Assembly: GCF_016735595.1 (NCBI RefSeq)
Contig: NZ_JAERRB010000008.1
Location: 1 to 64,000, forward strand
DNA length: 64,000 nucleotides
Source: Chryseolinea lacunae
GTDB taxonomy: Bacteria > Bacteroidota > Bacteroidia > Cytophagales > Cyclobacteriaceae
Reading direction: 5' to 3'
In this document: positions 27,445 through 44,125 of the stretch, piece after piece
Numbering within the stretch: the stretch's first letter is position 1
Layout: each line of letters opens with the position of its first letter
Program-made: the position numbers and the translations under genes
The notes under the pieces: model-generated
The model's input: the letters and a program-made list of their open reading frames with translations, nothing else
Databases searched by the model: none
Told to the model about the DNA's origin: nothing

Positions 27445-28004
27445 AGTATGCTTTAATAATTCTTTTATCGACATTGAACGCTTCCGCAATGGGACAAATC
27501 AAGTTTAAACTGTACGCATACAGCCCTTGCTCGGAAAAGGTGACAAAAATTGAATCTTTTGGACTAAAAAAGAATGGTCTTACTTTGGCAATAGCTGACA
27601 CAAGTGGTGTGCTTTTGCTTAAAGATACCGGCAGATATACCTTATTGTATGCTATGGAAAAAATTGATAGCACTCAACTAAGAAGAGAATACTATGTTAG
27701 TGCGGTTGAATGTTTCAGTGATACCTTAAAGCTCATAAGTATTGATGCTTGTTTGGAGCCAACATCGCATCCCAATTTCATAGGCTATTGCTGTTGCGAA
27801 AAAAAATGTCAAGGTACTCAGATCGATTTTTACGAAAATGGCAATAAAAGGATTGAAGGTTTTTTTAAGGAGGGGATTCCAATTGGGCAATTGAAATTTT
27901 ATTATCCAAACGGAAAACTAAAAATGATCAAAGATTATTCAAAAAAAGGTAGATTAAAGAATATCAAGTATGCAGATCATTTGAATCCAGAAGCGAGGTT
28001 CTGA
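27441..28004 (+). CDS. Exported protein with MORN/YwqK-like repeats
   Basis: This 187-residue protein has a Sec-type signal cleaved after 'SAMGQ'. The N-terminal half is beta-like. A Cys cluster 'GYCCCEKKCQGTQ' at about residues 114-126 precedes two MORN-type units, 'IDFYENGNKRIEGFFKEG' and 'QLKFYYPNGKLKMIKDYSKK'. These are like the YwqK family, whose members are sometimes annotated as antitoxin components. Such repeats are short beta-hairpins used in binding. It overlaps the preceding membrane-protein gene by four bases, so the two products probably act together. No function can be stated. Confidence 0.7.
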   Translation: MKYALIILLSTLNASAMGQIKFKLYAYSPCSEKVTKIESFGLKKNGLTLAIADTSGVLLLKDTGRYTLLYAMEKIDSTQLRREYYVSAVECFSDTLKLISIDACLEPTSHPNFIGYCCCEKKCQGTQIDFYENGNKRIEGFFKEGIPIGQLKFYYPNGKLKMIKDYSKKGRLKNIKYADHLNPEARF

Positions 28005-28431
28005 TCCATTGAGCTAGCGTTCGGTTAACATCATTTTTGAGTTAAGGGTTGATGGCGTCCATCCGTGAGTATTAACAATTTGTCCATTGGGGCTAAAATC
28101 AAAGGAAACTCCAATTCAACAAGGTTCTTCATTGCCATCGCACACTATACAGAGAAAAAGAATAGTTTAGGCGCATTGGACATTTGGTAGACCGAACAAA
28201 TTGACTATTCGCCCTTAAGAGATTCGAATAGCTCTTTAATGCTGTGTGGTTGAGTTAACTTGTAAGCAGGAACCGGATGCATACCCTTTGAAAGCTATTC
28301 TAGTCGCAAATCTGTAGGACGCGATAACTAACTTTGAACAGTATTGGTCTATTTAATTGTAAGCAACACGTACTTTCGAAAGCGTCCCTAAAAAGCGAAG
28401 CAGGAGCTGTTTCCCAAGGTGTCCTTCCATA
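28005..28431. other. Gene-free AT-rich stretch
   Basis: About 430 bases after the MORN-like gene contain no coding sequence I can support on either strand. The composition matches the AT-rich genes to the left. It ends at a long inverted repeat (28432-28532). Confidence 0.4.
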
Positions 28432-28532
28432 TGTAGTAGTTCCGACTTAATCTGACAGTTGGGTTAACTTAGAAGTGCAAACTATCTAAAGTCAAACCCT
28501 TTAAACTGTCAGATTAAGTCGGAACTACTACA
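28432..28532. repeat. MITE-like element, 29-bp perfect inverted repeats
   Basis: The left arm (28432-28460, starting TGTAGTAGTTCCGACTTAAT) and right arm (28504-28532) are exact inverted copies over 29 bases around a 43-base loop. Two more bases pair beyond one mismatch at the outer ends. ATA lies on both sides (28429-28431 and 28534-28536) and may be a target duplication. There is no transposase. The size and structure fit a miniature inverted-repeat element or a remnant with insertion-sequence ends. A terminator role is unlikely with so long a loop, although it lies 15 bases after the PIG-L gene. Confidence 0.75.
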
Positions 28533-28546
28533 CATAAAAAATCCAG

Positions 28547-29326
28547 CTAGTCCCAAAACTCCGCTTTCGAGCCCTTGGCCACGTAGAATCTCCGAAAGTA
28601 TTTTATGTTTGATCTGCTTTTTGTCTGTGCGTCAATTAACTCCTGAATTTCCTCTTTCGTATACTGGGTAGTATAACATTTTGCCGCTTCAAACATTTTC
28701 CGTTCGTCTTCATCGGTATAGCTGATTTTTAAGTTGAGATATTGTTTATCGACATAGCCGTTGCCACTGTTATCCATTACATCTTCCTTGATGTCTGCCG
28801 GGAAATAAAGCGGATACTTATCTACCCATCCTTCTCTTAACAACAGCTCTGTTACGATAGCTCCGGTCACAATATGTTCGGAGTGGCCATACTCTCCTTC
28901 CGGGCCGAATGTTAAGAGTATGTCGGGTTGAAGTTTTTGAATATGCATTTTAAGATCCTCCATCATCTTTGTTCGTCCGTTAAGATAGGCGCGAACTCCG
29001 AATTTAGTATCGAGTCTGTCAATGTGTAAATAAATCGGAGGATTGATTCCTAACTTCTCGCACGCACAGAGGGTTTCCTTTTGTCTGAGCCTGCCCAATG
29101 AGTCGCCTGCTGGAACTTTCGTTACCCGGGTTCCATCCTTTCCATCCGTCGCTATGATGACGTATACCTTGTGGCCAAGTCGCGCATATTTTGCAAGCAC
29201 ATGACCAATCATGTTCTCATCGTCAGGATGCGGAAAAACACCAAGAATAACTTTGCTTTTTGTCTGACCGCTGGCGGAATCCATTGAAATCAAACAGCAC
29301 ATCAGAAACAGGATGATGAATTTCAT
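28547..29326 (-). CDS. PIG-L family N-deacetylase, exported
   Basis: This 259-residue protein is a zinc-dependent de-N-acetylase of the PIG-L/LmbE family. The metal-binding motif is HPDDE at 33-37 and the second is 'GPEGEYGHSEH' with His148 and His151. Asp36 would be the base. An N-terminal signal ending 'SASGQ' places it in the periplasm or at the surface. Family members remove acetyl or other acyl groups from GlcNAc-like amino sugars on lipids, thiols or antibiotics. It lies downstream of SusD with a terminator between, so it may have its own promoter. Its place next to other amide hydrolases suggests one shared substrate. Confidence 0.9.
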   Translation of the reverse strand: MKFIILFLMCCLISMDSASGQTKSKVILGVFPHPDDENMIGHVLAKYARLGHKVYVIIATDGKDGTRVTKVPAGDSLGRLRQKETLCACEKLGINPPIYLHIDRLDTKFGVRAYLNGRTKMMEDLKMHIQKLQPDILLTFGPEGEYGHSEHIVTGAIVTELLLREGWVDKYPLYFPADIKEDVMDNSGNGYVDKQYLNLKISYTDEDERKMFEAAKCYTTQYTKEEIQELIDAQTKSRSNIKYFRRFYVAKGSKAEFWD

Positions 29327-29387
29327 AGTTCTCCTTTGATTAACTTTTATACTTGTAACAATCCTACCGAAAGCTTACGGGCCGATA

Positions 29388-29420
29388 TAGAAAAAGCGGA
29401 GACAAGCTCCGCTTTTTCTA
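29388..29420. terminator. Bidirectional-type terminator between susD and PIG-L
   Basis: Perfect 14-base arms, TAGAAAAAGCGGAG and CTCCGCTTTTTCTA, flank a five-base loop. The A and T runs are built into the stem, so it can work on either strand. It would end the SusCD transcript before the PIG-L gene, at least in part. Confidence 0.85.
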
Positions 29421-29527
29421 CCTGATCGGAAATTTAATAACCAAGGTTTCCTGTTCCTTGAATAAGCCAACGCTCAAACCGGGAGCTGCTTTATCAATGA
29501 TGGGGATTTTCGCTCAGGCTTCATCAA

Positions 29528-31207
29528 TCAATACGGTTTCGATGTTCCCTCCAGCAACCAGAATTTTGACCATGCACTATTGTTGGTAGGGTCACTACCC
29601 TTATAGGAAGTAGGTACTAGTCTGCTTATCGCCTCATTGGCATGCTCCGTGTTCGTATTTATATCATCGTCAAGGCTGTAGTAAAAGCGAAGTGGCAACT
29701 TAGACCTTGCGCCCGAAGGACCGGCTGCGAGGTCCGGCAGGCCGGTTCTGCGCCAATCGAACCACGCTTCGGCGGCAGCGGTCCAGCTTGCTATCCATTT
29801 TTGTTGAATGATGCTTTCAAGGCCGGTATACGGTGCGCCGGCAATGTAGTCGGCAACATCATCACTTACGCCCCACGCGTTGAATGACTCCTGAATCCCT
29901 TGGGCATAATACGTAGAAGCCCCCGAAATCCAGGTGTAAGAGGCTGCTTCGGCCAAAATGAAATTCACTTCGGCAGCCGATATAAGTCGCATCTGTAACA
30001 AATCGCCCGTAGCTTCCATGTACATGCTGTTCAATTGCGATATGTGCGAGTTGTAGCGGCCTTGCCCCGCGGCGTTACCTTCCAGCTGAAGATTGTAGAA
30101 CAACGCTCCCCCTATGGCCGGAGGAATACCAATGTAGTCGGTGCTATAATCTATTGGGGTATTGTAGGTGTCTTCATAGGTTTGCACCACGTCGGCAGAA
30201 ACTTCCCATGTTTTACCATCTGCACTGGCATGGCTTACGTCTGTGCCGCCTACAAGGACAAGCGGCTGTGGCACTTTATCGAACCAGACTGCAATGCGCG
30301 GATCATCCAAATCTTTGAGCGCGTTTACTAAAGTAGCGCAAGGTTTTGTGCGCATATATTCGCCATCGGGTGAGATGTTGAACACCATGTTGGTAGGCCA
30401 GGCCGTGGAAATTTTGCCTCCCGAAGTATCATCTGATGTTCCAGGATAGGCAACATTGGCATCGTCGGCGGCAGTGGTAATCAACGGAAACGTAGCTGGG
30501 TCATTTACGATTTTGACGACACCTGCTTTTGCAAACTCTGTTTCTTTGGCTTGCAAACGCATATAGTAGCGCAGTGCCAATGAATTCGCAAACTTTCTCC
30601 ATTTGGTCAGATCACCCGCAAAGAGCACATCTTGCGTTTCGTTGATGGGTTTGCCACCTTCCTGCGACAAAAGTGTGTTGGCGGCTTCAAGATCGGCAAG
30701 AATACCATGGTAGATGCTCTGTTGTGTATCAAATACAGGTTTGAAATACGCTGCACCTTCTTCTGCACGCAAAGCGTCTTTGTATGGGGCGTCGCCCCAC
30801 AGGTCGGCAATCAAACCAAACGTGTAGGCTTTCAAAATCATGGACACTCCTTCGTGATATACATAGTCTCCTTTCTGCGCCTTTTTATACAACTCATCGG
30901 CATTGCGTAAAACGCCATAGTAATCCGTCCAACTTTGACCCGGTGAACTCCAATCGTAGTTATTGTGACCACTTGACCAACCCGTTTTCTGCGTATGCTG
31001 CACTACTCCTGCAACATCTCCGATACCAAGGGTAATTACTCGACTTCCCAGGCTCGTGATCACGGTGGGCAACAACAGGTTTAGGTCTGTTGACTCCGGT
31101 GAGGGCGCATTGGGGTTTATGTTCAACTCGTCCAGATCTTTACAGCCGCCAACCATCAGCAGGATGATTAACGAAAAGGTCATTAGTTTATAATTCATCT
31201 TTTTCAT
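29528..31207 (-). CDS. SusD/RagB-like lipoprotein (SusD_like_2 type)
   Basis: This 559-residue outer-membrane lipoprotein has lipobox VGGC (Cys22) and continues 'KDLDELNINPNAPSPESTDL', the family's N-terminal signature. The body is the TPR-containing SusD fold ('GVSMILKAYTFGLIADLWGD', 'KWRKFANSLALRYYMRLQAK'). It ends near 'WTAAAEAWFDWRRTGLPDL', typical of the SusD_like_2 (PF12771) branch. SusD caps the SusC barrel and captures ligand at the surface. It is 15 bases downstream of the susC gene and clearly co-transcribed. The branch is common in loci for glycans and for peptides, so the substrate cannot be read from it. Confidence 0.95.
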   Translation of the reverse strand: MKKMNYKLMTFSLIILLMVGGCKDLDELNINPNAPSPESTDLNLLLPTVITSLGSRVITLGIGDVAGVVQHTQKTGWSSGHNNYDWSSPGQSWTDYYGVLRNADELYKKAQKGDYVYHEGVSMILKAYTFGLIADLWGDAPYKDALRAEEGAAYFKPVFDTQQSIYHGILADLEAANTLLSQEGGKPINETQDVLFAGDLTKWRKFANSLALRYYMRLQAKETEFAKAGVVKIVNDPATFPLITTAADDANVAYPGTSDDTSGGKISTAWPTNMVFNISPDGEYMRTKPCATLVNALKDLDDPRIAVWFDKVPQPLVLVGGTDVSHASADGKTWEVSADVVQTYEDTYNTPIDYSTDYIGIPPAIGGALFYNLQLEGNAAGQGRYNSHISQLNSMYMEATGDLLQMRLISAAEVNFILAEAASYTWISGASTYYAQGIQESFNAWGVSDDVADYIAGAPYTGLESIIQQKWIASWTAAAEAWFDWRRTGLPDLAAGPSGARSKLPLRFYYSLDDDINTNTEHANEAISRLVPTSYKGSDPTNNSAWSKFWLLEGTSKPY

Positions 31208-31222
31208 ACTCGCATCTGATTT

Positions 31223-34200
31223 TTAGAATGTAACACCCACCTTAAAACCTACAGGGACTATCCAGGGGGAAACGTTGTAGCGTTCAACACCTTGATACAG
31301 TCCATTACCCGATGGCTGAAAAGCCCGTTCAGGATCTACGCCAAATCCGCTCTTTGTCCACAACATGATGTTTCGGCTGTAAACCCCGATGTAGGCATTT
31401 TCCATCTTCACTCTCTTGAGCCAGCTTGCGGGAAGGTTGTAGCTCAATGAGATTTCGCGAAGCTTAATATAGTCGGCATCATACACTGCGTATGTACCCA
31501 CTGACCACGGATTGCTGGCACCCCAAGGTTCAAAGATCGTTCCCGGGTTTCCAAGGTTTTCCTGATACAGCGTAAAACGTCCATCGGCGCCCATTTCACC
31601 AAACACACCCGGGAAGAAGACTCCATCCCTATTGCCGGGAAACGCCATGTTGTCGCTTTCCGGAAAGCCACCGGTTTCGGGTGTAGGACCGCCAATTGGA
31701 TAAACGCGATCCGGATAAATTAACGTGCCGGCGTTCGCTACTACCCAATCGCGAAGCGCCTGACTTGCCTCACCACCACTCACACCGGGAGTGACTACCT
31801 TGCTTGCCCACCATGCCGTTAGCATGTCATCATTCATGTAGCGCGACGTTTGTGATACGAATTGGCCACCATGACGCCAGTCGAAGGTTGCGCTAAGTGA
31901 AAAGTTTTTCCAGGTAAGGGTGGTTTGCATCCCCATGATGAACTTAGGATTGTAATTTCCAACCTTCGAATAAATTGATGAGTTGGTCAATTCAGGATCA
32001 TCATCGAAACTTCCTGTTAAGGGATTACCTGGAATAATCGGGTAACCAAAGTATGGTGATTCTTCATCGGTAACCCGAAGTGTTTTGCGTGTGTATAAAT
32101 TACCCGTCAATCCATCGGCGATGGTGCCATCCGGCAACGTAGCGCCTTTCACATATCCTCTGTTCACTACGTTGGCTTGGCCCCAGGGCTGAACATAGTC
32201 AATGTTGTCGGCCAGCTCCAATATCTTCGTTTGGTTTTTGGTAAAGTTCAGGCTTACGTCCCATGTCCAGTTGTTGGTACTGATCGGTGTGCCCCCAATA
32301 ACAATTTCAACGCCACGGCTTTGGAGCAAACCTGCATTGATATTAACGCTTCCAAACCCTGAGGATTGAGCAAGCGGAACCTGGAAGATTTGGTTTCGGT
32401 CGTTCATGGTGTAGACGGTTCCGTCAAAGCGAACGCGGTTGCCAAATAACTTGGCTTCAACACCATACTCCTGCGACGTGATTTGTTCCGGCAACAGGTT
32501 CGGGTTGAGCAATCCACTTTGTTTGCTCAACATGAGGGCTTCGCCCCACTGGCCGGCGTTGGCATACACTTGTAGTAAGTTATACGGGTTGGTATCGTAA
32601 CCTGTGCGCGCCACACCTGCCCTTACTTTTAGTAAGTCGACATTCTTAATGGCTACGAATTCATTGATCAAAACGCTCAATGAAGCAGACGGATAGAAGT
32701 ACGATCGGCTAGCGGCAGGCAATGTGCTGCTCCAGTCGTTACGTCCAGTCAAATCGAGATAAATCCTTTCTTTCCATGCCAGGTTGGCTTGACCATAAAC
32801 GCTATTAACTGCTTTTTGATAACTGGCAGAAGAGTATTGCAATGCTGTGTTCGCAATGTTGCTTAACGTAAAAAGATTGGGGATTATCAATCCCGAACCA
32901 GGCTTTGATGAGTTGCTCACGTTGGCCGACTTGCTGTAACGAATGTTGCCACCCACCGAAAGATTCACCGAAAAATCACCAAAGTTGTCTTTATAGGAAA
33001 GTAGTGCATCTGTATTGCGTTCAAAATTGTTGCTGTTGCTGATACCGTAGGCTCCATTGTGCGGCTCATCCGTATACCCCAATCCAATTTTTGATTCTCG
33101 CACTTCGTCCACCTTATCGATCATCATCCGCGCCATAAGCGAGAGTTTTGGCGTAAACTCATAGGTAGCCATCACATTGCCATAGAGCTGATAACGGTTA
33201 AAACTGTTGTTTACATCATAGGCCAACATCCACGGGTTGTTGCTATCGCCCTGCACTACGTTTTTAATCGTATTTCCCTGACCGATGTCATAGTCTTTCA
33301 AATCCATGATGTTCACATAAACCGGCGTGTAATACGCCCATTGCAGCGGGTTTGTTCCCCGGTCGCCCGAGGGCCTGTTTTTAGCATAGCTGTTTGAAAA
33401 GTTGATGTCGGTGCTTACCGTAAACTTTTCAGTTGCCTTTGCCGATGCCGATAACGAGAGGTTATTTCTTTTGATATCCGAATTCGGAATCAACCCTTTG
33501 TTGGTCATGTTGGTCAAGCCCAGGCGGAGGCTCAAAAACTTTCCACCGCTGGAAACCGATGCCGAATTGGTGCTGGTGACACCGTAGTTGTTCAGGAAAT
33601 TTTTTACGTTGTTGGGATACGATTTCAACTCGATAGGAACGGGTTGGCCGTTGGCATCCACAGGCGAATTCCATTGCGTTGCCCAGTAGCCTTTATTCAA
33701 TTCAGCACCGACACCGAAGGGCGATATCAGCGAAGGCATTACCGTGCTTCCGTTTTGTTCGGGTGTCGTAATAATATAACCACCGTACTGCTGTTGTACA
33801 CCTAAAAAACGTTGGGGCATATCGAAACTATTGTTGGTCGACATGGATACTTTCAACCCCGAACCTGCCTTGGCTTTTTTGGTGGTGATGAGTATGACAC
33901 CATTCGATGCACGAGAACCGTACAGCGCGGTAGCACTCGCACCCTTCAGCACCGTTACGTTTTCAATGCTTTCCGGATCAATATCCGAAATGGCATTTCC
34001 ATAATCCACCGTGCTGTTGCCGCTACCAAAACCGCCTACGTTATTCACGCTGTTGAACAGCGGCACACCATCTACCACGTATAAGGGTTGGTTATCGTTG
34101 CTCAGTGATTTTGCACCCCGGATAATCACACTTACCGTTGAACCAGGGCCACCGGTTTCGTTAACCGTTACGCCCGCCACTTTTCCCTGCATGGACGTTA

Positions 34201-34630
34201 AGAAGTTTTCGCGTGCCACTTTGGTGAATTCTGCGCCCTTCACTTTCGACACCGCATAGCCAAGTGATTTTTCATCGCGTTCGATACCCAATGCGGTAAC
34301 CACCACTTCTTTGAGTTGCGTAACATCGGCCTCCAGGGTTACGGCAATGGTAGTTCTTGCCCCTACCACTACTTCCTGTGTGAGGGAACCTATGAATGAA
34401 AATATAAGCACATCATTCTCGCCGGCGGAAATAGAAAACTTACCATCACTATCTGTGGTGGTGCCGCTCGTAGTGCCTTTTTTAACAATGTTCACACCGG
34501 GAATACCCAGATTATCAGTATCGACTACTGTTCCGGTAACAATTCGTTCCTGCGCATAGGTGCTCGAGAACATCAGCAGAAAAACGATAACCAAACTTGT
34601 TCGCGTTAATCTTACGTAGAATCTTTTCAT
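31223..34630 (-). CDS. SusC/RagA-like TonB-dependent receptor
   Basis: This is a 1135-residue outer-membrane transporter. The start at ATG 34630 gives a signal cleaved after 'STYAQ'; a further upstream ATG would add 13 polar residues. Residues about 25-105 are the carboxypeptidase-regulatory-like domain ('VTGTVVDTDNLGIPGVNIVK'). 'LKEVVVTALGIERDEKSLGY' carries the TonB-box region, the plug follows ('LYVVDGVPLFNSVNNVGG' and the 'TVLKGASATALYGSRASNGV' motif), and the C-terminus is a 22-strand barrel. It pairs with SusD to import a macromolecule fragment through TonB energy. No anti-sigma STN domain is present, so regulation is by another route. Confidence 0.96.
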   Translation of the reverse strand: MKRFYVRLTRTSLVIVFLLMFSSTYAQERIVTGTVVDTDNLGIPGVNIVKKGTTSGTTTDSDGKFSISAGENDVLIFSFIGSLTQEVVVGARTTIAVTLEADVTQLKEVVVTALGIERDEKSLGYAVSKVKGAEFTKVARENFLTSMQGKVAGVTVNETGGPGSTVSVIIRGAKSLSNDNQPLYVVDGVPLFNSVNNVGGFGSGNSTVDYGNAISDIDPESIENVTVLKGASATALYGSRASNGVILITTKKAKAGSGLKVSMSTNNSFDMPQRFLGVQQQYGGYIITTPEQNGSTVMPSLISPFGVGAELNKGYWATQWNSPVDANGQPVPIELKSYPNNVKNFLNNYGVTSTNSASVSSGGKFLSLRLGLTNMTNKGLIPNSDIKRNNLSLSASAKATEKFTVSTDINFSNSYAKNRPSGDRGTNPLQWAYYTPVYVNIMDLKDYDIGQGNTIKNVVQGDSNNPWMLAYDVNNSFNRYQLYGNVMATYEFTPKLSLMARMMIDKVDEVRESKIGLGYTDEPHNGAYGISNSNNFERNTDALLSYKDNFGDFSVNLSVGGNIRYSKSANVSNSSKPGSGLIIPNLFTLSNIANTALQYSSASYQKAVNSVYGQANLAWKERIYLDLTGRNDWSSTLPAASRSYFYPSASLSVLINEFVAIKNVDLLKVRAGVARTGYDTNPYNLLQVYANAGQWGEALMLSKQSGLLNPNLLPEQITSQEYGVEAKLFGNRVRFDGTVYTMNDRNQIFQVPLAQSSGFGSVNINAGLLQSRGVEIVIGGTPISTNNWTWDVSLNFTKNQTKILELADNIDYVQPWGQANVVNRGYVKGATLPDGTIADGLTGNLYTRKTLRVTDEESPYFGYPIIPGNPLTGSFDDDPELTNSSIYSKVGNYNPKFIMGMQTTLTWKNFSLSATFDWRHGGQFVSQTSRYMNDDMLTAWWASKVVTPGVSGGEASQALRDWVVANAGTLIYPDRVYPIGGPTPETGGFPESDNMAFPGNRDGVFFPGVFGEMGADGRFTLYQENLGNPGTIFEPWGASNPWSVGTYAVYDADYIKLREISLSYNLPASWLKRVKMENAYIGVYSRNIMLWTKSGFGVDPERAFQPSGNGLYQGVERYNVSPWIVPVGFKVGVTF

Positions 34631-34679
34631 ATATGTTGATGAGTTCGTTAGTCTATTTAATCTTTTCAACCAAACAGTC

Positions 34680-35597
34680 TCAGACTGCTTTAAAAGTCAT
34701 GACAAGCGCGTGAGAAGCCTTCGGGTATTCGCCCGGATCGGCAGCAATGAAGATCACCAGACGCATGCTTTTATCGGTGATACTTTGCAGGATTACTTTG
34801 GTCTGCGCATCCAGAAAACCGACATACCCATTCCCCGTAAAGGAGAGTGTCTTGACTCCAGAGTAGGTCACGCCGGCAATGGATGGTACTGCGAAATTTT
34901 CATTTTCAGCAAAGGTAAAGGCAGCATTCGCGTCGGCCGCGTAGTTGGCCGTACACAAGTCGTAGACATCCGATACGCCATCGACTGCCTTTACACCGGT
35001 TTTACCAGTAACCAGTGCGTTCACGTAACCTCCAAAGGCTTTGCCATCGCTGCTGGGACCGCCATTGGCATTCGCGGTGTATTTGCCATCAAAATAAAAC
35101 GTGAAGGTATCGTCGTAGGCTTCTCCATATCCAACACCGCTAAAGACGCCGGTGCTCAGCGCTTGAACAGATGTGAATGAATCGTCTGCGAGCGCAAACT
35201 TGTCGCCACTCGGATGCGAACTGTCAATTTTCCAGGTCTTCCCGCCCTCGGCGGTTGGCCCGCCAGTCAATAGGATATAGGGCGTCACGTCAACTGCCAA
35301 CTGAGCGGTTTTCTGGTCGGTTCCGGTTTTGCCGGTCACACTCACAGTCACTGTATAATACCCGCCACTGGCATACACGTGCACAGGATCTTTGTCGGTG
35401 CTCTTCTGCCCGTCTCCAAAATCCCACGCATATGAATCCGCGCTGTGTGACAACGCGGTGAATGCTGCCTGCTTTCCAACAACACTGTAAGAAAGTTCAA
35501 CCGATGTAGGGAATTCCGAAACACCATCATCCGAACACGCTAATAGAATCACGGCTAGCGTAATGGCCGTATAAAACCTTTTGTATAGACTCTTCAT
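34680..35597 (-). CDS. PKD-domain surface lipoprotein of Sus-type locus
   Basis: This 305-residue lipoprotein has lipobox LLAC (Cys21) followed by Ser, Asp, Asp. A PKD domain spans about residues 30-105, with the signature 'SYAWDFGDGQKSTDKDPVHV'. The remaining 190 residues form a beta-rich domain that starts 'GGKTWKIDSSHPSGDKF' and has aromatic and Asp-rich stretches ('YDDTFTFYFDGKYTANANGG'), as in surface glycan-binding lipoproteins next to SusC/D. It is the first gene of the susCD transcript, about 50 bases upstream of susC. Its likely role is ligand binding at the cell surface, similar to SusE/F. The substrate is unknown. Confidence 0.85.
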   Translation of the reverse strand: MKSLYKRFYTAITLAVILLACSDDGVSEFPTSVELSYSVVGKQAAFTALSHSADSYAWDFGDGQKSTDKDPVHVYASGGYYTVTVSVTGKTGTDQKTAQLAVDVTPYILLTGGPTAEGGKTWKIDSSHPSGDKFALADDSFTSVQALSTGVFSGVGYGEAYDDTFTFYFDGKYTANANGGPSSDGKAFGGYVNALVTGKTGVKAVDGVSDVYDLCTANYAADANAAFTFAENENFAVPSIAGVTYSGVKTLSFTGNGYVGFLDAQTKVILQSITDKSMRLVIFIAADPGEYPKASHALVMTFKAV

Positions 35598-35965
35598 TTT
35601 TCAATAGTTAAGTTATTATGGGGCTAAAATTTGAAGGTAAAATCTTACGATGTAGTTATACTAATCTCTGTCGCTTCTTGCCTTAGAAAATGATTTGCCT
35701 TGAGACAATTGCCTCCGGATATACGTACGCACTACACTTTTTTTACGGTATGAGCGAAGGGAACTCCAAACTCCTGTCAACGCCCAAGTGTCGTGTTGTA
35801 AAAGTTGAGTCTTAAACAATTCCCTTTACCGTATGAAAGTATTCCTATTTCCCTCGATACCAGCCCGGATTTGCGTCAAAAAGGCGTCATTTTGCGCAAA
35901 GCACTGAAATGTTAATTTAATATTATTTAGGCATTACCTAACCAAGGTGATTGTGTTATATTCCT
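35598..35965. promoter_or_regulatory. Upstream region of susCD genes with TTTGCGCAAA palindrome
   Basis: This 368-base stretch holds no gene. It should contain the promoter of the PKD-lipoprotein/susC/susD transcript. A perfect 10-base palindrome, TTTGCGCAAA, lies at 35891-35900, and a related TTTGCG at 35872. The same TTTGCGCA core occurs upstream of the other half of the locus at 43106. TACGGTATG and CCGTATG copies at about 35744 and 35830 are a second, weaker repeat. A shared regulator is possible. Confidence 0.45.
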
Positions 35966-37549
35966 TCACCGGAGCCGAGATTTTTTTTGCTTGACTTTGT
36001 TTTCCAATACTACCAGGGAAACACCTTCTTTCAACCATCGCTTGTTTATACCCGTTGCATCGCCCATCGGTAAAATGCTAATGTTAGACCCTAACACGAT
36101 ATCCACGTCTCCATCCCTATCATAATCGTTGGCGTCCATTGCAATCCATCTTCCTATACCCATCTCAGCAAAAGTTGAAACACTAAATCTCATATTGCCC
36201 TGGTTTTGCAAATAGATGAATCCTACTTCCTGAGCGTTTGCATAATCAGGAAAGTAGGATATGGCTGAAATATCGAGATCGCCATCCTGATCGTAGTCTT
36301 TGGCTATTGCCTTGTATGCCCCATTCAATTGATGAAAGAAATGTTGCTTAAAGGTAAAATCGCGCTGCCCGAGAAATATATAAATACCATGATACTCTTT
36401 TAAGAACGGTGTTTGGTCTGCATTGTCTCCGCTTGTATAAAGGATATCCTTCACGCCGTCTCCATTGAAGTCGATGTAATCAAAGAACGTGGATCCATAG
36501 AGTGGGGAGAAACGCAATATTAATTGTGCTGGATCAAATCCATTTCCATTGTTATGAAAGTAAAAGATGCCTTCATCTCCCTGCGCCATCAATGCCAGAA
36601 TATCGGGCTTACCATCCGCATCTACATCGTCGATCACAACGTTCGTTGCACCTGGCTTTCCAAGTAACACATGAAACTGGTATTTGTCTTTCCTGTTTTC
36701 ATACCAGCCCAGTGATCCAGTATAGGAACCAAACTCGCAGGCTACTATATCGTCAAGCCCATCGCCATTAAGATCTTTGTAAACTATATTAACAGGTCTT
36801 TTAAGTTTATTTAAAACGAGTTTGGGTTCAGGTGTAAGCGTGTTAAGATCGCGTACGGCCATGTGACTTATCCATCCCTCTCTTGCGTCCGTTGGAAATA
36901 AGCCCTTACCGATAGTCGTAATGGAATACGAGTCATCCTTAAGTTTTGTGTATTGAATAGGCAGCGCGGTCATTTTGTAGGACTGCACGTTCTTTAAGTC
37001 GGCGTTTAAAATATTCAATGTATAGGAGCGTCCATACGTTGTGCCGAACGCGATTTGAGAAGTCTCCGGCAAGATGGAGACAAAGGATGTTAAGGGCATG
37101 GGCGATGGAAGCTTGTAGGCTTTGTATTCAAAGTGGGGGAGTCCAATGGAAATGGGCTCCGTCCTAAAGGTTGGTATTGCGTCGGGGGCTCTCGAAATAA
37201 AATAATCGACAATGCGCTCCCAATCTTCGGTTGATACAGCCTGAGTGGATGGGAAAATATTTGCCGCTTCCACGATCTGGCCGCCCTCACCCGGCTCAAT
37301 TAAAGTTTCGCGTTGTTTGGTGTTTCTATAGATTCCCAATCTATTTCCCATGGCTGGCAGCACATCTTCCTTCCACGATGATTTTATGAGCTTCTCTGGT
37401 GGCACAAACGCATGGCAACTGGTGCAATACCGGGCAGCCAATTTGGCGCCATCTTCTTCACGTGTATCGGATCGGTTTGCTTCGCTGGTTCGGTTACAGG
37501 AAAGAATGGTTGACAGCAGAAAAAGGATATATATATTCTTAATGACCAT
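35966..37549 (-). CDS. Lipoprotein with CxxCH motif and FG-GAP/VCBS repeats
   Basis: This 527-residue lipoprotein has lipobox ILSC (Cys18). 'AARYCTSCHAFVPPEKL' at about residues 38-54 is a c-type haem attachment site with a downstream 'LPAMGNRLGIY' that may give the Met ligand. Residues about 220-500 contain at least five VCBS/FG-GAP calcium-loop blades: 'DLNGDGLDDIV', 'DVDADGKPDIL', 'DFNGDGVKDIL', 'DYDQDGDLDIS', 'DYDRDGDVDIV'. The domain order suggests a surface beta-propeller with a monohaem cytochrome head. Such proteins accompany Bacteroidota polymer-use loci. Electron transfer is possible but unproven. It precedes the intergenic region of the susCD genes on the same strand. Confidence 0.88.
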   Translation of the reverse strand: MVIKNIYILFLLSTILSCNRTSEANRSDTREEDGAKLAARYCTSCHAFVPPEKLIKSSWKEDVLPAMGNRLGIYRNTKQRETLIEPGEGGQIVEAANIFPSTQAVSTEDWERIVDYFISRAPDAIPTFRTEPISIGLPHFEYKAYKLPSPMPLTSFVSILPETSQIAFGTTYGRSYTLNILNADLKNVQSYKMTALPIQYTKLKDDSYSITTIGKGLFPTDAREGWISHMAVRDLNTLTPEPKLVLNKLKRPVNIVYKDLNGDGLDDIVACEFGSYTGSLGWYENRKDKYQFHVLLGKPGATNVVIDDVDADGKPDILALMAQGDEGIFYFHNNGNGFDPAQLILRFSPLYGSTFFDYIDFNGDGVKDILYTSGDNADQTPFLKEYHGIYIFLGQRDFTFKQHFFHQLNGAYKAIAKDYDQDGDLDISAISYFPDYANAQEVGFIYLQNQGNMRFSVSTFAEMGIGRWIAMDANDYDRDGDVDIVLGSNISILPMGDATGINKRWLKEGVSLVVLENKVKQKKSRLR

Positions 37550-37578
37550 GGCATTCGTTTAGGCAAACTGACTTGCTA

Positions 37579-38880
37579 TTAAAATACATGTATTGGATTC
37601 GAATACACCCAGGGAACAAATTGGTCGTCCAGTTTAATGTGCATTTCAATCCGATACACTCCTTTCTTGATTTGTTCAGACCATTGATATTCGTATTGCC
37701 CGTCAGCAGAAGTGCCAACAACCTTTCCGTTATAGATAAGTCTGAACTGGCCCGGCAACGGAGAAACAGCCTGCATGGATTTTACCTGATTTACTTGCAC
37801 CGAATCTCCGAGAATGCCACTGACCTTCCCGTCATTATTTTTTGAACAGAACATAAATCCTTTTGCATCGCCAAGACTTTTAAAGGCGATAAAGAGATGA
37901 CCTTTCTTCAGGTGATTGCTGATGGAAGGCACCGACAATGTGTCGGCGAATACATAGTTGGTAACATTATTGAAACTCGCTTCGTAGGTGTCAATCATAA
38001 ATTTGAAGATCCAGCCACTTTCATCGGGCTCGTGAAATAGCCAGCGATTCCAAATGGTATTCTCCACCGTATCGATTGGTTTAGCATTTGGACCCAGCCA
38101 TTCAATTCGTCCATCTTTCAAGAAGCGCGCCCTGAAATTCTGATTCTCATGAGCATCCACAGCCGCAAATCCTGCAATGGCTCTCCATTGGTTCAACGAA
38201 TCCCAGTGCGCAAGAATGGACCTTTGCTCATCAAAAGATTCACGCATCCCCCAGGCTCTATTTTTTTCTCCACTGGCTATGAAGTTACAGATGATTGGAA
38301 GTAATGATTCATCTTTTATATCGGTATGAATGTTATAGATTTCCATTCCCTGATAGTAGGGGTTGTGCCAATTATGATCTTCTTCGCTATGGGCGTAAAA
38401 AATTATTCCGCCATTCGAAACAACATTTTTTGCTACCGTGTCTCTATCTACGCTCCAATCCGTTACGGTAGAACGAAGTGGCCAGGCGCAAAAGCCTTCC
38501 CTTTCCGTGCCTGGCTCAATCAACACACCATCGTAGTAACCTTTGTAGCCGCGGGGGATTGTGTCACTGTTTCCGTGTGCATGATCTGTCAGGAATATGA
38601 AATCAATCCCCACCTTTTTTGCCGCCGGGACAATGTCCAATAAAGTGCCCTCACTATCATGTGACCAAAAACTATGCGCATGAAGGGCACCGCGATAGAC
38701 ATTAAGTTGGGTCAACGATTTTGTTTCTTTTCGAAGAGACTGGAAAGCCTGTATTTGTTTTTCAAGTTTGGGATAAACAACCCACCTGTTCCACAACCCC
38801 GGGGAGAAAAAATACAGGAACGCGAGTAACAATAAACCTACTACAGAAAGCGAAAGGTATTTCAATATGCTTTTTATCAT
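37579..38880 (-). CDS. Membrane-anchored PHP-domain hydrolase
   Basis: This 433-residue protein has one N-terminal membrane helix (about residues 6-25) and a PHP metal-hydrolase domain: 'YRGALHAHSFWSHDSEGTLL' supplies the HxH-type motif, and 'GIDFIFLTDHAHGNS' the DH. Later metal-ligand candidates are 'IIFYAHSEEDHNWHNP', 'MEIYNIHTD' and 'AAVDAHENQNFR'. PHP enzymes cleave phosphate or other esters with a trinuclear metal centre; many exported ones are uncharacterised. The start is taken at ATG 38880, three codons inside a longer option. It lies 30 bases downstream of the ceramidase-like gene and 29 upstream of the next, so it belongs to the operon. Substrate unknown. Confidence 0.88.
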   Translation of the reverse strand: MIKSILKYLSLSVVGLLLLAFLYFFSPGLWNRWVVYPKLEKQIQAFQSLRKETKSLTQLNVYRGALHAHSFWSHDSEGTLLDIVPAAKKVGIDFIFLTDHAHGNSDTIPRGYKGYYDGVLIEPGTEREGFCAWPLRSTVTDWSVDRDTVAKNVVSNGGIIFYAHSEEDHNWHNPYYQGMEIYNIHTDIKDESLLPIICNFIASGEKNRAWGMRESFDEQRSILAHWDSLNQWRAIAGFAAVDAHENQNFRARFLKDGRIEWLGPNAKPIDTVENTIWNRWLFHEPDESGWIFKFMIDTYEASFNNVTNYVFADTLSVPSISNHLKKGHLFIAFKSLGDAKGFMFCSKNNDGKVSGILGDSVQVNQVKSMQAVSPLPGQFRLIYNGKVVGTSADGQYEYQWSEQIKKGVYRIEMHIKLDDQFVPWVYSNPIHVF

Positions 38881-38910
38881 ATGGGGCAAGCGATCATCAG
38901 GCAGATAGTC

Positions 38911-40317
38911 TTAAATGTTGTTCGTATTCGTAATCACTCTTGAAAGCTGTCGGATCAATTCCATTGTATAGTCACCCATGTTTGGACCAAACCAGCCCAT
39001 GAGTTTAGGTTCATACTCATCAAGGTAGAAATATCTGCCCGGAACAATATACCCTGTATACCCACCATTGAAACTTGTAACGTTCGCATGATAGCCATAG
39101 GTGGAAAGTGAATTCTTTAACTGGAGCGCAAACTCACCACTAAAGTCGCACGGCGTGGTAATCCATATCATATTCCCCATTCGCACCGCTTGCAAATACA
39201 CATTGCCCGAATTCGGCAAAAGTGAACTACTCAAGGCCGTAACGAGATTACGTTGTGTTGTCAACCGGATGTGATATTCTGGCAAATCTATTCTTAAGGA
39301 CAGCGCGGAAAACTTCACCGTATCTTTTACAGCGATGCCCTGCAGGTGTTTGTTAAGACTGTCTGCCAGGGCTTCGCCAATAAATTTTGGCTTGTCAAAT
39401 CCATCGCCCTCCCCTACTGGACTTTGACTACCAACCGAACCAGCAAAGAATAGTGCATAGTCGGCCGATGTTTCTTCCATTTTTTGCTGCCAGTATCCCG
39501 GATAATCGGCACTGATTTGCATATTGTCTGATCCCATAGTTGTTGCATGTGCGGAATAAGAACCAATAATCGCCTTCTTCTTTCCGATTTGCTCGAGTGT
39601 GATAAAACTAAAGTCGTTGTTTCTATTGCCCGACTCACCGATCAAACGATTACGTGTGTATTGCGCTACAGAAAAATCGCCGGTACCGATTCGCGCGGGC
39701 GTGAGATCAGCAAGGGCAGAAATAATCACTTTTGAAATTTGAAGAGCCAACCATTTCTCTACGCTCGTATTTTGTTTTCCCGAAAACTGTTCTCCTATAA
39801 AGCCTGGTGCCCAGGCTCCGACGCTTGAATGCGTGTGCGTGGCCGAGTAAAATATCTGCTCGCGTTTAATTCCCCTTTTCGAAAGTATTGAGGTTACGGA
39901 GTCAACAACATTGGGAGGCATGATGAGTAAATCGGATGCCACAAAGACAATCGTTTGGTGGCCCACTTTGATGGCTGCGGCTTTAACAAAGATACTATCG
40001 TGAATGCCCGTAGCGGGTTTACCTTTTCGCCCGCCAAATCCCGCCAACGGAAGCTGCGTGAATTTGCCTTGGGCACTGTTATCTTCAGTTTGATGGAGTG
40101 CCGGCGTAATGCTGACCTTGGCAAAGCCAGCATGAATCGAATCGATGGTAACAACCATGGATTCTTTTATCGTATCAAGTCTGGCAATCGTTTCATGATA
40201 GTACTTTTCATTAAAGTAGGTTTCGCTTTTTATAGATGAGGTACTGAAGTATAAAATCAAAAAGATGATCATTAGCAACGCGCCCAAAATGATTCCGATT
40301 CGTTTGATGACCTTCAT
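38911..40317 (-). CDS. Neutral/alkaline ceramidase-like amidase, membrane-anchored
   Basis: This 468-residue protein has one N-terminal membrane helix (residues 6-25). The body matches neutral/alkaline non-lysosomal ceramidase, N-terminal domain (PF04734): 'AGFAKVSITP', 'PLAGFGGRKGKPATGIHDSI', 'TIVFVASDLLIMPP' and the metal-site segment 'FYSATHTHSSVGAW'. A further His is in 'IGSYSAHATTMGSDN'. Full-length bacterial ceramidases are about 650 residues and have a C-terminal Ig-like domain; that part is missing here. Ceramidases hydrolyse the amide of N-acyl sphingosine with zinc. Related short proteins may act on other N-acyl lipids or sugars. The ATG lies 14 bases after the preceding gene's stop, within an 18-base tandem duplication. 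Confidence 0.85.
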   Translation of the reverse strand: MKVIKRIGIILGALLMIIFLILYFSTSSIKSETYFNEKYYHETIARLDTIKESMVVTIDSIHAGFAKVSITPALHQTEDNSAQGKFTQLPLAGFGGRKGKPATGIHDSIFVKAAAIKVGHQTIVFVASDLLIMPPNVVDSVTSILSKRGIKREQIFYSATHTHSSVGAWAPGFIGEQFSGKQNTSVEKWLALQISKVIISALADLTPARIGTGDFSVAQYTRNRLIGESGNRNNDFSFITLEQIGKKKAIIGSYSAHATTMGSDNMQISADYPGYWQQKMEETSADYALFFAGSVGSQSPVGEGDGFDKPKFIGEALADSLNKHLQGIAVKDTVKFSALSLRIDLPEYHIRLTTQRNLVTALSSSLLPNSGNVYLQAVRMGNMIWITTPCDFSGEFALQLKNSLSTYGYHANVTSFNGGYTGYIVPGRYFYLDEYEPKLMGWFGPNMGDYTMELIRQLSRVITNTNNI

Positions 40318-40349
40318 TTCTTGCTTTTCTTTTATTTCTTGCTTTTCTT
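40314..40349 (-). repeat. 18-bp tandem duplication at gene junction
   Basis: On the minus strand the 18-mer at 40349-40332 ends in TAA, the stop of the deacetylase gene. It is repeated at 40331-40314 with TGA in place of TAA. That second TGA overlaps the ATG of the next gene as ATGA. A slippage duplication probably turned an original ATGA stop/start overlap into a 14-base gap while keeping the purine-rich ribosome-binding stretch. Confidence 0.85.
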
Positions 40350-41333
40350 CTCAAATCGTTTCATGATCTCTTTCCAGTTGGTGATCATGATACCTTCTTT
40401 CCGAAAGAACTCGGTAACGATCGGATCGGAAAACAACTCTGCTTCCCAAACTCTTTGCTGCCACGATCCTGTAATCGATTCCAAATTATCCGTTTGCACG
40501 GAGGGGTGAAAAATTATTTCCGTTAGTCCCGGCTTTAAGGATTTTATCAAGGTCAGGAATTTATCGCGCTTTTGCTCGTATGTGGCACCCGCTCCAACAC
40601 TGGTGAAATTGTCTAGTTTAGGCAATCGATATTTGTTTGAGGTGCTCAATACTTCGTCGTTAAAGGGATAACCTTGTCGTTTAAATTGGCTTACAAAATC
40701 GGGATCAGACATGTCTATCGCATTTGCCGGAATATTATACTCCTCCGCCACCTTATAAAAAGCTTTTGTGAATTCAACAGAACCATACAATGTGCCCATG
40801 TGTGTATCTAAATGCGTTGGCCTATATCCAAGGGCCAGGCATTTTTCAATCTGAGCACGAATTTCTGTTTCCACTTCTTGCGCCGATGCGTGAATTACCA
40901 CGTCGGGTACTTCGTGCCAGAATTTTCCATCCGGATCAACCAAGCCAGGCACTTTTACTGCATCGGATACAGGGGGCCAACGGTATTCTTCCCATTCGCT
41001 GGTTAAGGTAAGATGCAAACCAATTTCAGCCGCGGGATGAGTTTTTGCCCACTCAATAAATTCCACTGCGTTAGGGCAGGGCATCATCACCGCTGCCGAC
41101 ATTATATTCTTGTTTTCTATATATCGAATAGCGGCTGTGTTGGCCTCCGGGCACATGCCGATATCATCCATATGGAGCAGTAATATCTTCTTCCCTTTCG
41201 GATAATTAAGTTTTTCAGCCCAGGTACTTTCCTTTTTCGTTTTATCCAATTGCGCCAATACGGGAAGCGTTACTAAAACACATGCCAGCACAATCATGCT
41301 GAGCGCGCCAGCGTGGGTGACTCGTTTCTTCAT
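40332..41333 (-). CDS. YdjC/ChbG-type carbohydrate deacetylase, exported
   Basis: This protein of 333 residues (start ATG 41333) has a Sec signal ending 'LPVLAQ'. The YdjC fold is clear: 'ILLLHMDDIGMCPEANTAAI' with the metal Asp-Asp, 'AEIGLHLTLTSEWEEYRWP' with the His motif and 'PTHLDTHMGTLYGSVEF' with the third site. ChbG removes an acetyl group from the non-reducing or reducing end of chito-oligosaccharides; HpnK acts on hopanoid N-acetylglucosamine. This one is exported and long. It is in the middle of the operon, 51 bases after the first ceramidase-like gene. The likely activity is de-N-acylation of an amino sugar. Confidence 0.9.
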   Translation of the reverse strand: MKKRVTHAGALSMIVLACVLVTLPVLAQLDKTKKESTWAEKLNYPKGKKILLLHMDDIGMCPEANTAAIRYIENKNIMSAAVMMPCPNAVEFIEWAKTHPAAEIGLHLTLTSEWEEYRWPPVSDAVKVPGLVDPDGKFWHEVPDVVIHASAQEVETEIRAQIEKCLALGYRPTHLDTHMGTLYGSVEFTKAFYKVAEEYNIPANAIDMSDPDFVSQFKRQGYPFNDEVLSTSNKYRLPKLDNFTSVGAGATYEQKRDKFLTLIKSLKPGLTEIIFHPSVQTDNLESITGSWQQRVWEAELFSDPIVTEFFRKEGIMITNWKEIMKRFEKKSKK

Positions 41334-41384
41334 TTCATTCAATTTAACTACTGTCATTTAAACTTTCCAGCACCAAGCAAGCTC

Positions 41385-42950
41385 TTATTGCGGATCATTC
41401 AATTCATTTAGTAACTGCTTAATGCTTTCATGTAACAAGGGTGCTGTTTCCGGCCCCAGCGAATTTACTTCTCCGTAAGGCCGATCAGGTTTTCCGTATG
41501 TAAACGGCGCCTCGGCATCCCATTGACTTCGCGGAACAATATAACCGATCTCATCATTGGCAAGACCAAACACGAATTTATACTTGCCCGCCATCATCTC
41601 TCTCACAGGAGGCGTCTCCACCGGTGCAACACCAAAGTCTCCACCTTCAGGAGCCTCTACGCCACCGTTGATAATTTCAGGATAGACTTCGCCCGGAATG
41701 GTTGCAAACGAAAGCGGCCCGATATTGAATACCGAAACCTCCGAACGCATGTTCATCCATCCGGTTACGCCACGATCGAGTGTGCCAATCATTGTTCCCA
41801 ATTGAAATAGTTTATTGGCCACTGGAAAATAAACTGTTTTTACGATAAGTGAAGTGGCCGCTGAATCAATTTCTTCAACTGGATTCTCCATGGCATTCAA
41901 AGCCAACAAAGCAAGTTGTTTGCCTTGTGCCTCCGTCTTTTCAAAGGTGGGTTCATCATATTTTTGATCGGTAAACGGATCCTTCACGGCCAGGCTGGGA
42001 TGTGTCGTCATCAATCCTCCAATAGCGCCATTGATATAGACCGCTACGCCACCAATGCCTGGCTTAACCAGACTGTCGCCCTTGTAAATTCCGTTCTCAA
42101 CGCCTTCGCGCACATAGTGTGGAAAATCCGAAGAGATCAGCAAATTATCGCTCCACAATGTTTCAGGATGATCGGCCCAGGAAATTAATGAGCCGAGCAC
42201 CTTGCCATTTTCCTTGTCGATGGCTTTGATAAGTCTCAAGCCTGAATCAAAAACTTCTGGATTGCGTGTGTCTTTTACCAGGGGAATTGCACCCGTAAGA
42301 TCTTGAGAAATCGATAACCGCGCGGGGCGCATATTTTGCAAAGCGGCTACGATGGACTTTACAGCTTGATCTTTTACAAACTCCATGTACTGTTTATTGA
42401 TACCACTCTTCAAAGGAGAATCGCCCCATATCCCTACAAGATCGGGGCTTTCATGGTCATGGGTAGAGGCAATTATGGTATAGGTAACTCCGGCTTCTTT
42501 TGGTATACGCGACCGGATGTCCACAACATCGTCATGCAAATAGCCAATGGCATCGAGCACAACGATGGCGATACGCGTTGTGCCATCATCAATCACCATT
42601 GTTCTGGCCCAGAGGTCATCGTGAATTCCGTTGGCGGCTCTGCCCCCACTAAAACCTGCTATCCAAAATGCATCAAAAACACCATTGCCGTTGCCATCCT
42701 CAAAAGTATCTCCATCTTTTGTACGGTATTCGAAATCATGGTTTACATCCGTCCAACGATCGGGAATTTCGGGTGTGATCTTCAGAGCGGCAAATCCTGC
42801 CTTCAATGCGGAAGGATGGTTGCCCATAATTTTTATGTCTGCCTTGTAGTCAGGATTGCGATCTTTCAAATTTGAACGGATCCAAATTGCTAATCCAACG
42901 ATGGCTATCAGCAAGATCAATCCTGTTGTTTTAAAGATTTTTTTCATCAA
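41385..42950 (-). CDS. Neutral/alkaline ceramidase-like protein, first gene of operon
   Basis: This 521-residue protein has an N-terminal membrane helix (about residues 6-25). It belongs to the same superfamily as the gene at 38911: 'LKAGFAALKITPEIPD', 'FWIAGFSGGRAANGIHDDL', 'RIAIVVLDAIGYLHDD' and the metal segment 'YTIIASTHDHESPDLVG'. A further His is in 'SWADHPETLWSDNLLISSDF'. An acidic insert, 'GDTFEDGNGNGVFDAFW' near residue 80, looks like a calcium loop. The C-terminal 'VFGLANDEIGYIVPRSQWD' is also family-like. It is the first gene of the left-reading run that ends with the VCBS lipoprotein. Substrate is inferred as an N-acylated lipid or sugar. Confidence 0.85.
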   Translation of the reverse strand: MMKKIFKTTGLILLIAIVGLAIWIRSNLKDRNPDYKADIKIMGNHPSALKAGFAALKITPEIPDRWTDVNHDFEYRTKDGDTFEDGNGNGVFDAFWIAGFSGGRAANGIHDDLWARTMVIDDGTTRIAIVVLDAIGYLHDDVVDIRSRIPKEAGVTYTIIASTHDHESPDLVGIWGDSPLKSGINKQYMEFVKDQAVKSIVAALQNMRPARLSISQDLTGAIPLVKDTRNPEVFDSGLRLIKAIDKENGKVLGSLISWADHPETLWSDNLLISSDFPHYVREGVENGIYKGDSLVKPGIGGVAVYINGAIGGLMTTHPSLAVKDPFTDQKYDEPTFEKTEAQGKQLALLALNAMENPVEEIDSAATSLIVKTVYFPVANKLFQLGTMIGTLDRGVTGWMNMRSEVSVFNIGPLSFATIPGEVYPEIINGGVEAPEGGDFGVAPVETPPVREMMAGKYKFVFGLANDEIGYIVPRSQWDAEAPFTYGKPDRPYGEVNSLGPETAPLLHESIKQLLNELNDPQ

Positions 42951-43562
42951 CTAATTATTCAAAATGTTATCTAAATATTAAGCTTGAGTAAGGCCACTTC
43001 GATTTGATCCTGAATTTGCTTTTCAGAGAACGAAGAGTATAGTGTTTCAAGAATCGAAATCAAGCCATGAAACATACAAACTTGACCTTTCAAACCGCTT
43101 CACCTTTGCGCATTTCGTTGCGCATTATGCGCATTTGTAAGAAATAATCATGATGCTTGTGACTACGTATGGAATTACCGTGCAGGTGTCAAAGACCCAA
43201 GGTTGTCATGCAGGTATTTTGATACCTGGTTATACGTCGCCGAAAATCATCGACATTTCACGCCGACCGCCTTCGTACTCTTTAACAATCTTCTCAATTT
43301 CTTAGGCGAGTGTTTTAAACTTGTCTGTATCGATCGTTGACTGCGAAAATCCCGCGACAGAATGAAGTATCAGTCCAACAAAGTGAGGCGCCTTATTTGT
43401 CTTTCCCTCAAACGAATATTACCTAAACCTTTTTGCACGTGGCCCGCACGTTAGAAGCGGCCAAGTCATTCAAAATTTATTACGAATGGCGACACCGAAT
43501 CCCGCAATACCTGGTAATTATCTAAATTCGGGTGTCGTAGTAATTGCCACCAGCTTATGTGA
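42951..43562. promoter_or_regulatory. Regulatory stretch upstream of the amidase operon
   Basis: About 610 bases between divergent genes carry no coding sequence. Structured elements are three TGCGCATT copies at 43107, 43119 and 43128, and a palindrome CAGGTAT-TTTG-ATACCTG at 43211-43228. Another TGCAGGT lies 28 bases upstream of the palindrome (43181). A further ATACCTGGT occurs at about 43508, close to the start of the 43563 gene. These are candidate operators for the amidase operon and for the small membrane protein. No regulator gene lies nearby. Confidence 0.5.
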
Positions 43563-43922
43563 ATGAGTATGACTGAAAAAGAAGAATTGACACCTGAAGA
43601 ATTAAAGAAAATGGCCTATTCCATGGGGATGAGACTTAAAAACCAGGGGCTTGATGGCGAGACAATTTATGCACGCCTGGAAAAACAAGGGATACCAGAG
43701 GACATGGCAAAAGAAGTTGTGCACGACATTCTAACGGAAAGAAAAAGAGACGTCATAAAACAAGCTGAACCCGTCTACAATTTTGCGTTGATTAGAATTG
43801 GAATTGGTCTTGCGGTGGGTTTGCTAACCTACCTACTGACCAACATTGTTATACTTCCCATAGCGATTATTGCGGGTGGCGTAGTCGCCGCGTTGATGGC
43901 GAAAAAGAAAATGGAAGAATAA
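43563..43922 (+). CDS. Small membrane protein, unknown function
   Basis: This 119-residue protein has a soluble helical N-terminal half with 'EELTPEELKKMAYSMGMRLK' and 'LEKQGIPEDMAKEVVHDILT', the second resembling a short UBA- or SHOCT-like helix pair. It is followed by two adjacent membrane helices at about residues 75-93 and 94-111, and it ends in Lys and Glu. An alternative start is two codons downstream. I do not recognise the family with confidence. It is monocistronic and ends at a clear terminator (43957-43989). Confidence 0.7.
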   Translation: MSMTEKEELTPEELKKMAYSMGMRLKNQGLDGETIYARLEKQGIPEDMAKEVVHDILTERKRDVIKQAEPVYNFALIRIGIGLAVGLLTYLLTNIVILPIAIIAGGVVAALMAKKKMEE

Positions 43923-43956
43923 TTTATTTTGGAAGTTTTGCTAGTGCACACGTGCA

Positions 43957-43989: not shown

Positions 43990-44002
43990 GTCTCTTTTTG
44001 AA

Positions 44003-44092: not shown

Positions 44093-44125
44093 GGGTGGCT
44101 TCCTTTAATTAAGGGCACAAAAATA

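Follow-up and report, generated by a model that had tools for sequence, protein, structure and literature searches.

SusCD systems are a main food route of Bacteroidota, and most of those described have been interpreted as glycan systems on the strength of the glycosidases they contain. Here we describe a SusCD locus of different make-up in Chryseolinea lacunae (Cyclobacteriaceae), at positions 28547-42950 of the 64,000-nucleotide stretch that was analysed (contig NZ_JAERRB010000008.1, positions 1 to 64,000; hereafter the window). Its nine open reading frames (ORFs), all on the minus strand, encode PIG-L, SusD, SusC, a PKD lipoprotein, a c-haem/FG-GAP lipoprotein, a PHP protein, the ceramidase-superfamily protein CerA, YdjC and a second ceramidase-superfamily protein, CerB. 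Like a Sus-type polysaccharide utilisation locus, it combines SusC, SusD, a putative binding lipoprotein and apparently exported hydrolases; unlike such a locus, the window copy has neither glycoside hydrolase (GH) nor lyase. In the literature searched, we found no description of a SusCD locus with a ceramidase-type/PHP core, which agrees with the view taken in an earlier sequence-only reading of this DNA that the make-up does not match described polysaccharide utilisation loci. A ceramidase has been reported in a fish pathogen, and the part of that paper at hand does not place it in a SusCD locus (PMC5561996).

We hold, with about even confidence, that this is a probably acquired nutrient locus of a recurring type, which takes up an acylated glycoconjugate and removes its acyl groups in the periplasm. 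The repeated core of the locus type is CerA-PHP-CerC, where CerC is a third ceramidase-family protein found in the loci of relatives; in the window, CerB stands in its place.

Organization of the locus

The features of the locus are as follows, in the order of the minus strand.

41385..42950, minus: CerB, ceramidase-superfamily, 521 amino acids (aa), hydrophobic N-terminal segment (PF04734, 36.9 bits)
40332..41357, minus: YdjC-family carbohydrate deacetylase-like protein, export-like N-terminus and lipobox-like VLAC (PF04794, 186 bits)
38911..40317, minus: CerA, ceramidase-superfamily, 468 aa, N-terminal anchor-like helix (PF04734, 52 bits)
37579..38889, minus: PHP-type metallohydrolase with C-terminal beta domain, 436 aa, N-terminal anchor-like helix (PF02811 and NF038032, both below cut-off)
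35966..37549, minus: lipoprotein with CxxCH haem motif (CTSCH in the sequence) and FG-GAP repeats (FG-GAP_3, PF13517, 82 bits)
34680..35597, minus: PKD-domain lipoprotein, putative surface binding protein (PKD_4, PF18911, 53 bits)
31223..34669, minus: SusC-type TonB-dependent transporter (TIGR04056, 637 bits)
29528..31207, minus: SusD-like lipoprotein (SusD-like_2, PF12771, 234 bits)
29390..29418, no strand: terminator-like hairpin with a perfect 12-base-pair (bp) stem between SusD and PIG-L, read from the sequence
28547..29326, minus: PIG-L-family protein with signal-like N-terminus, beyond the hairpin (PF02585, 83 bits)
28429..28535, no strand: two 32-nucleotide (nt) inverted ends of a dispersed repeat, 43 nt apart, 107 bp in total, from repeat comparison

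Families were assigned with Pfam and NCBIfam at E<=0.01; the ORF calls are mechanical and starts may be mis-set. The gene set, its single strand and its outer ends, as the sequence-only reading had given them, were borne out by these profiles. None of the nine proteins matched a glycoside hydrolase, lyase or sulfatase profile in the two collections at that threshold. The locus is Sus-type in the sense of neighbouring SusC and SusD genes, 15 bp apart; under the strict definition of a polysaccharide utilisation locus, with a glycoside hydrolase or polysaccharide lyase inside it, some relatives qualify and the window copy does not.

Intergenic spacings are 10-29 bp, except for 201 bp between SusD and PIG-L and 368 bp between the PKD and haem lipoproteins, and because of these two wide gaps one to three transcripts are possible. 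The terminator that had been proposed before PIG-L is visible in the sequence as the 12-bp hairpin; it was missing from the output of a terminator scan, which gave fewer sites than shuffled sequences did (14 vs 17.5). Judged from hydropathy and inspection, the N-termini of CerA, CerB and PHP are anchor-like, those of PIG-L and YdjC are export-like, and the PKD, SusD and haem proteins carry lipoboxes, which suggests that these proteins are exported or anchored. The whole 7.9 Mb genome encodes three PF04734 proteins, two of them inside the locus; since the arrangement also recurs in other genomes, the clustering goes beyond chance. The third (contig 1, L117:7235-8584) is 32% identical to CerA, and no SusC or SusD was recognised by eye among the ORFs listed around it.

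Recurrence of the core in other genomes

First searches suggested that the locus is unique to this genome: the PHP protein was found in its own genome alone, both by a single-sequence search of 395 genomes of the phylum and by a three-sequence profile in 291 genomes. This was overturned by relatives in other genomes. When named genomes were scanned with PHP, two loci at 60% identity came up, in an uncultured Prolixibacteraceae bin (L073) and in Draconibacterium aestuarii (L074), both of which have SusC, SusD, CerA, PHP, CerC and a PqaA-type hydrolase (PF10142). PHP matches are present in 32 of 140 genomes in the family to which the Draconibacterium genome belongs and in 17 of 235 in the window's own family (window counted), so that, by the PHP gene, the locus type is common in at least two families.

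For the Draconibacterium family, 31 of the 32 matches were taken as a first locus set (G702, present as fragments only, was omitted). A conserved cluster is found here, with CerA directly before PHP in 27/31 loci and CerC directly after PHP in 26/31. Anywhere in these stretches, CerA was found in 28, CerC in 27, SusD in 18, PqaA in 17, PKD in 16, BD-FAE in 11, CerB in 8 and YdjC in 2; the 31-locus counts are lower bounds, many contigs being short. The order PKD-SusC-SusD also recurs in relatives, and the CerA, PHP, PKD, SusC, SusD and CerB proteins of the window have close counterparts at 47-74% identity. In several loci that lack SusD, the CerA-PHP-CerC core stands amid beta-helix, GDSL esterase, GH78, GH2 and GH43-like genes.

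The PHP gene is absent from the five other genomes listed for the same genus. Among the 16 non-window PHP loci of the window's family, 15 were examined (all except G1192), and nine of these are rearranged versions with partner genes present, namely CerA, CerC, PqaA, GDPD, GH31, GH92, BD-FAE, YdjC or a divergent SusC-SusD-CerA unit. The PHP paralogues of L169, L171, L173, L175 and L179 form a separate clade (100/98) with partnerless neighbourhoods.

The ceramidase-superfamily proteins

CerA (52 bits) and CerB (36.9 bits) pass the PF04734 gathering score of 32.1, below which the CerC of one relative falls (27.2). Like neutral ceramidases (PF04734; 2zws, 4wgk), CerA has the fold and the zinc-ligand positions, and CerB and CerC have the His/His/Glu/Tyr set by motif. 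For the CerA model (mean predicted local distance difference test score, pLDDT, 79), the match to 2zws, a neutral ceramidase, has E 5.8e-23; outside the ceramidases, the best structure reached E 8.5e-4. In a profile alignment, H97, H204, E411 and Y448 of 2zws, which we take to be its zinc ligands, pair with H161, H257, D391 and Y423 of CerA; across 28 CerA sequences these positions hold His in 28, His in 28, Asp in 27 with Glu in one, and Tyr in 28. By motif, the four CerB positions are retained in 9/9 sequences, and CerC keeps two His and the Glu in 26/26 and Tyr380 in 18/18. CerB and CerC can be aligned with each other across most of their length.

Unlike neutral ceramidases, CerA is shorter at the C-terminus and far below the ceramidase equivalog, CerA and CerB have an N-terminal anchor-like segment, and CerB and CerC lack the serine of the GDxSPN motif. 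This serine, presumably the ceramidase nucleophile, is Ser in 25 and Thr in 3 of 28 CerA sequences. The GDVSPN motif is described as crucial for ceramidase activity (PMC5874051).

The modelled fold of CerA and its active-site positions are the evidence for a locus that imports and degrades ceramide or sphingolipids, a substrate class which the sequence-only reading had also considered. We judge this decidedly unlikely. The alignment of CerA with 2zws stops near residue 469 of 646, and CerA scores 19 bits against a cut-off of 1200 for the ceramidase equivalog NF041649 (CerB gave no match at E<=0.01). Moreover, CerA seems to be anchored behind an importer, and both YdjC and the glycosidases found in relatives suggest sugars; no finding singles out sphingolipids.

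Beyond its own copy, a CerA search of the 395 phylum genomes gave only matches of 28-35% identity (12 genomes, counting the own one). The window CerB is 67% identical to the L074 copy of Draconibacterium aestuarii and 74% identical to the L182 copy. CerB was rejected as a tracer of the locus: full-length CerB (44-59% identity) occurs in 14 other genomes of 291 in the absence of locus partners, with no CerA, PHP, YdjC, SusD or PKD around these 14 genes at E<=1e-5. A distant SusC-type gene (25-41% identity) lies in six of those neighbourhoods and a YceI gene in one.

PHP, YdjC, PIG-L and the haem lipoprotein

The window PHP scores 21 bits with PF02811 (cut-off 26.4) and 50 bits with the CehA/McbA family NF038032 (cut-off 80). 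Like CehA/McbA-type PHP hydrolases and BVU_3505 (3e38), it has a PHP-type fold, an additional beta domain and the residues of the metal motif; unlike them, it stays under the NF038032 cut-off and is 13% identical to 3e38, with weak superposition. Besides one Gly, eleven metal-motif positions were checked, ten of which are kept in 32/32 sequences and the eleventh in 31/32. The PHP model (mean pLDDT 87) had 3e38 as its sole match under E 0.001 (E 2.4e-7).

YdjC clearly belongs to the family of YdjC carbohydrate deacetylases (8jqe, 2i5i, 2e67) by Pfam (186 bits vs a gathering score of 29.7) and sequence search; it stays below the cut-offs of the chitin-disaccharide deacetylase and NF052308 equivalogs. 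Relatives of YdjC, 60-62% identical, adjoin PHP (L167), CerA (L146) and CerB (L129). In L129 (16182-18335), a YdjC domain is fused to a BNR sialidase-like domain adjoining CerB.

PIG-L (83 bits vs a gathering score of 28.2 for PF02585) does not reach the MshB and BshB equivalog cut-offs. A comparison with 49 locus stretches gave no counterpart of either PIG-L or the haem lipoprotein at E<=1e-4; L129 carries a different PIG-L directly after CerC. The tie of PIG-L to the locus is weak, because it lies beyond the hairpin and has no such relative. Of the two deacetylases assigned to the locus by the sequence-only reading, YdjC recurs beside PHP, CerA or CerB in three relatives and PIG-L does not recur. 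The description as N-acyl hydrolases needs qualification too: several acyl-hydrolase-type genes are present, among which CerB lacks the motif serine and PHP is under the CehA/McbA cut-off. N-acyl hydrolysis is suggested by family membership.

Glycosidases beside the core in relatives

In the first locus set, GH78 is found in 6/31 loci, GH92 in 3/31, GH2 in 3/31, GH31 in 1/31 and GDPD in 2/31, and GH43-like genes below the Pfam cut-off in 3/31; a second set has GH31 in 8/16, GH92 in 3/16 and GDPD in 4/16. In Draconibacterium itself (L114), a GH31 gene lies upstream of PKD. Because many relatives carry glycosidases, their absence is a trait of the window copy only; the statement that the locus has no glycoside hydrolase, lyase or sulfatase stands for the nine locus proteins and fails as a defining feature of the locus type.

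These genes, together with the frequent esterases, are what one would expect if the window held a stripped version of an ordinary glycan utilisation locus, in which the ceramidase-type and PHP proteins are accessory removers of esters or side groups and the glycosidases have been lost or are encoded elsewhere. We consider this a real possibility, although one well short of even. Against it, CerA-PHP-CerC repeats whether a glycosidase is present or not, and the kind of glycosidase varies by family from genome to genome, so that no single glycan is implied.

Further genes were noted in these neighbourhoods. One relative has a sulfatase gene in opposite orientation within the locus (L177:11248-13512), and beside the Draconibacterium locus (L113:377-4217) lie a GH109-like oxidoreductase and a protein with a GH20b domain.

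Proposed function

According to the deacylation reading that we favour, the PKD and SusD lipoproteins would bind a small acylated glycoconjugate, such as an acylated oligosaccharide or a glycolipid head group, which SusC would import. Acyl groups, probably amide-linked, might then be taken off in the periplasm by CerA and CerB, acting as anchored zinc hydrolases, and by the PHP metallohydrolase, and the exported YdjC might take the N-acetyl group off an amino sugar. The product would then pass the inner membrane; none of the nine genes encodes a transporter for this step. That all enzymes act on one common substrate, in this order and on this substrate class, is an inference. Judged by the CerA site and YdjC, amides would be more probable targets than esters. 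In favour of this reading stand the gene set with its conserved CerA-PHP-CerC order and its recurrence in two families, the YdjC relatives in three further loci, the match of the CerA model to neutral ceramidase, the metal-binding positions that are kept, and a phylogeny and GC3 that look foreign.

Several observations weigh against this proposal. The PHP gene is rare beyond the two families, with only the own genome among the 395 of the phylum and 2/237 in the order that includes Draconibacterium, the centre genome itself among the two, and six of the 15 own-family PHP genes (L169, L171, L173, L175, L178, L179) have no partner at all. On the side of the enzymes, the GDxSPN serine is missing in CerB (GGLM, then Thr or Cys) and CerC (GGMVT), none of the three ceramidase-type subfamilies has an activity known to us, and PHP superposes poorly (template modelling score, TM, 0.33-0.40) on 3e38, a Bacteroides protein described with a predicted PHP-like phosphoesterase. 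The glycosidases adjoining the core weaken the claim that amide hydrolases define the locus type. Finally, esters fit as well as amides, because relatives add esterase-like alpha/beta hydrolases (PqaA in 17/31, BD-FAE in 11/31) as well as glycosidases. The observation made from the sequence alone is confirmed, and its interpretation as a deacylating import locus is partly supported.

A more specific proposal, which we find unlikely, is that the locus represents a new class in Bacteroidota, feeding on acylated glycophospholipid head groups similar to glycosylphosphatidylinositol (GPI) or inositol-phosphoceramide. Here PKD and SusCD would import the head group, GDPD, GH31 and GH92 of the relatives would trim phosphate and sugars, and a relay of CerA, PHP and CerC or CerB, the last two using a new kind of catalysis, would remove amide-linked acyl groups. 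GDPD, GH92 and YdjC are compatible with this scheme and none is specific for it.

A frequent locus type with a core of ceramidase-superfamily and PHP proteins would suggest that a class of nutrients has been overlooked, along with enzyme families that await testing; the core offers a concrete set of proteins for assay.

Origin and surroundings of the locus

The phylogeny and the composition of the locus look foreign. Trees were built from sequences of at least 400 (PHP), 420 (CerA), 1000 (SusC) and 480 (SusD) aa, with all sequences of L112 and L114 excluded. In the PHP tree, the window lies on a branch of 32 with 31 Draconibacterium-type sequences (100/100), apart from 14 own-family sequences, among which the Draconibacterium-family copy L146 sits. 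CerA of the window falls on a Draconibacterium-type branch of 28 (98/98), with just three own-family sequences for comparison and L146 as a long branch. SusC groups with two Draconibacterium-type sequences (100/100) in a tree with one own-family sequence, and the SusD tree is mixed, the window's group having two Draconibacterium-type sequences and one of the own family.

The GC content at third codon positions (GC3) of the mechanical ORFs in 26.6-44.0 kb is 0.467 (n=10) vs 0.630 outside (n=37; p 1.7e-5), and the GC of the six relatives' stretches measured is 0.41-0.46. The repeat at 28429-28535 has a 27-base core with 13 copies in the genome (9 of the 13 shown near a contig end); this stretch next to the locus resembles a miniature form derived from a resident insertion element. 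No direct repeats of at least 20 nt were found within 25000-45000. The locus was probably acquired horizontally, and the trees, the low GC3 and composition and the repeat ends at the edge favour a Draconibacterium-like source, the direction of transfer being an inference.

Repeat ends at one edge, and a haem lipoprotein and PIG-L that lack counterparts in the 49 stretches, would also be seen if unrelated genes had become neighbours by accident after a transfer event. This we regard as very improbable for the locus as a whole: the core recurs in many genomes and the spacings are short. A chance neighbourhood was therefore rejected for the core, though it could yet be true of PIG-L and the haem lipoprotein.

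Beside the locus, at 27010-28004, lie two small ORFs whose GC is very low (0.38 and 0.35), and a tRNA-Ser gene is located at 44003-44092.

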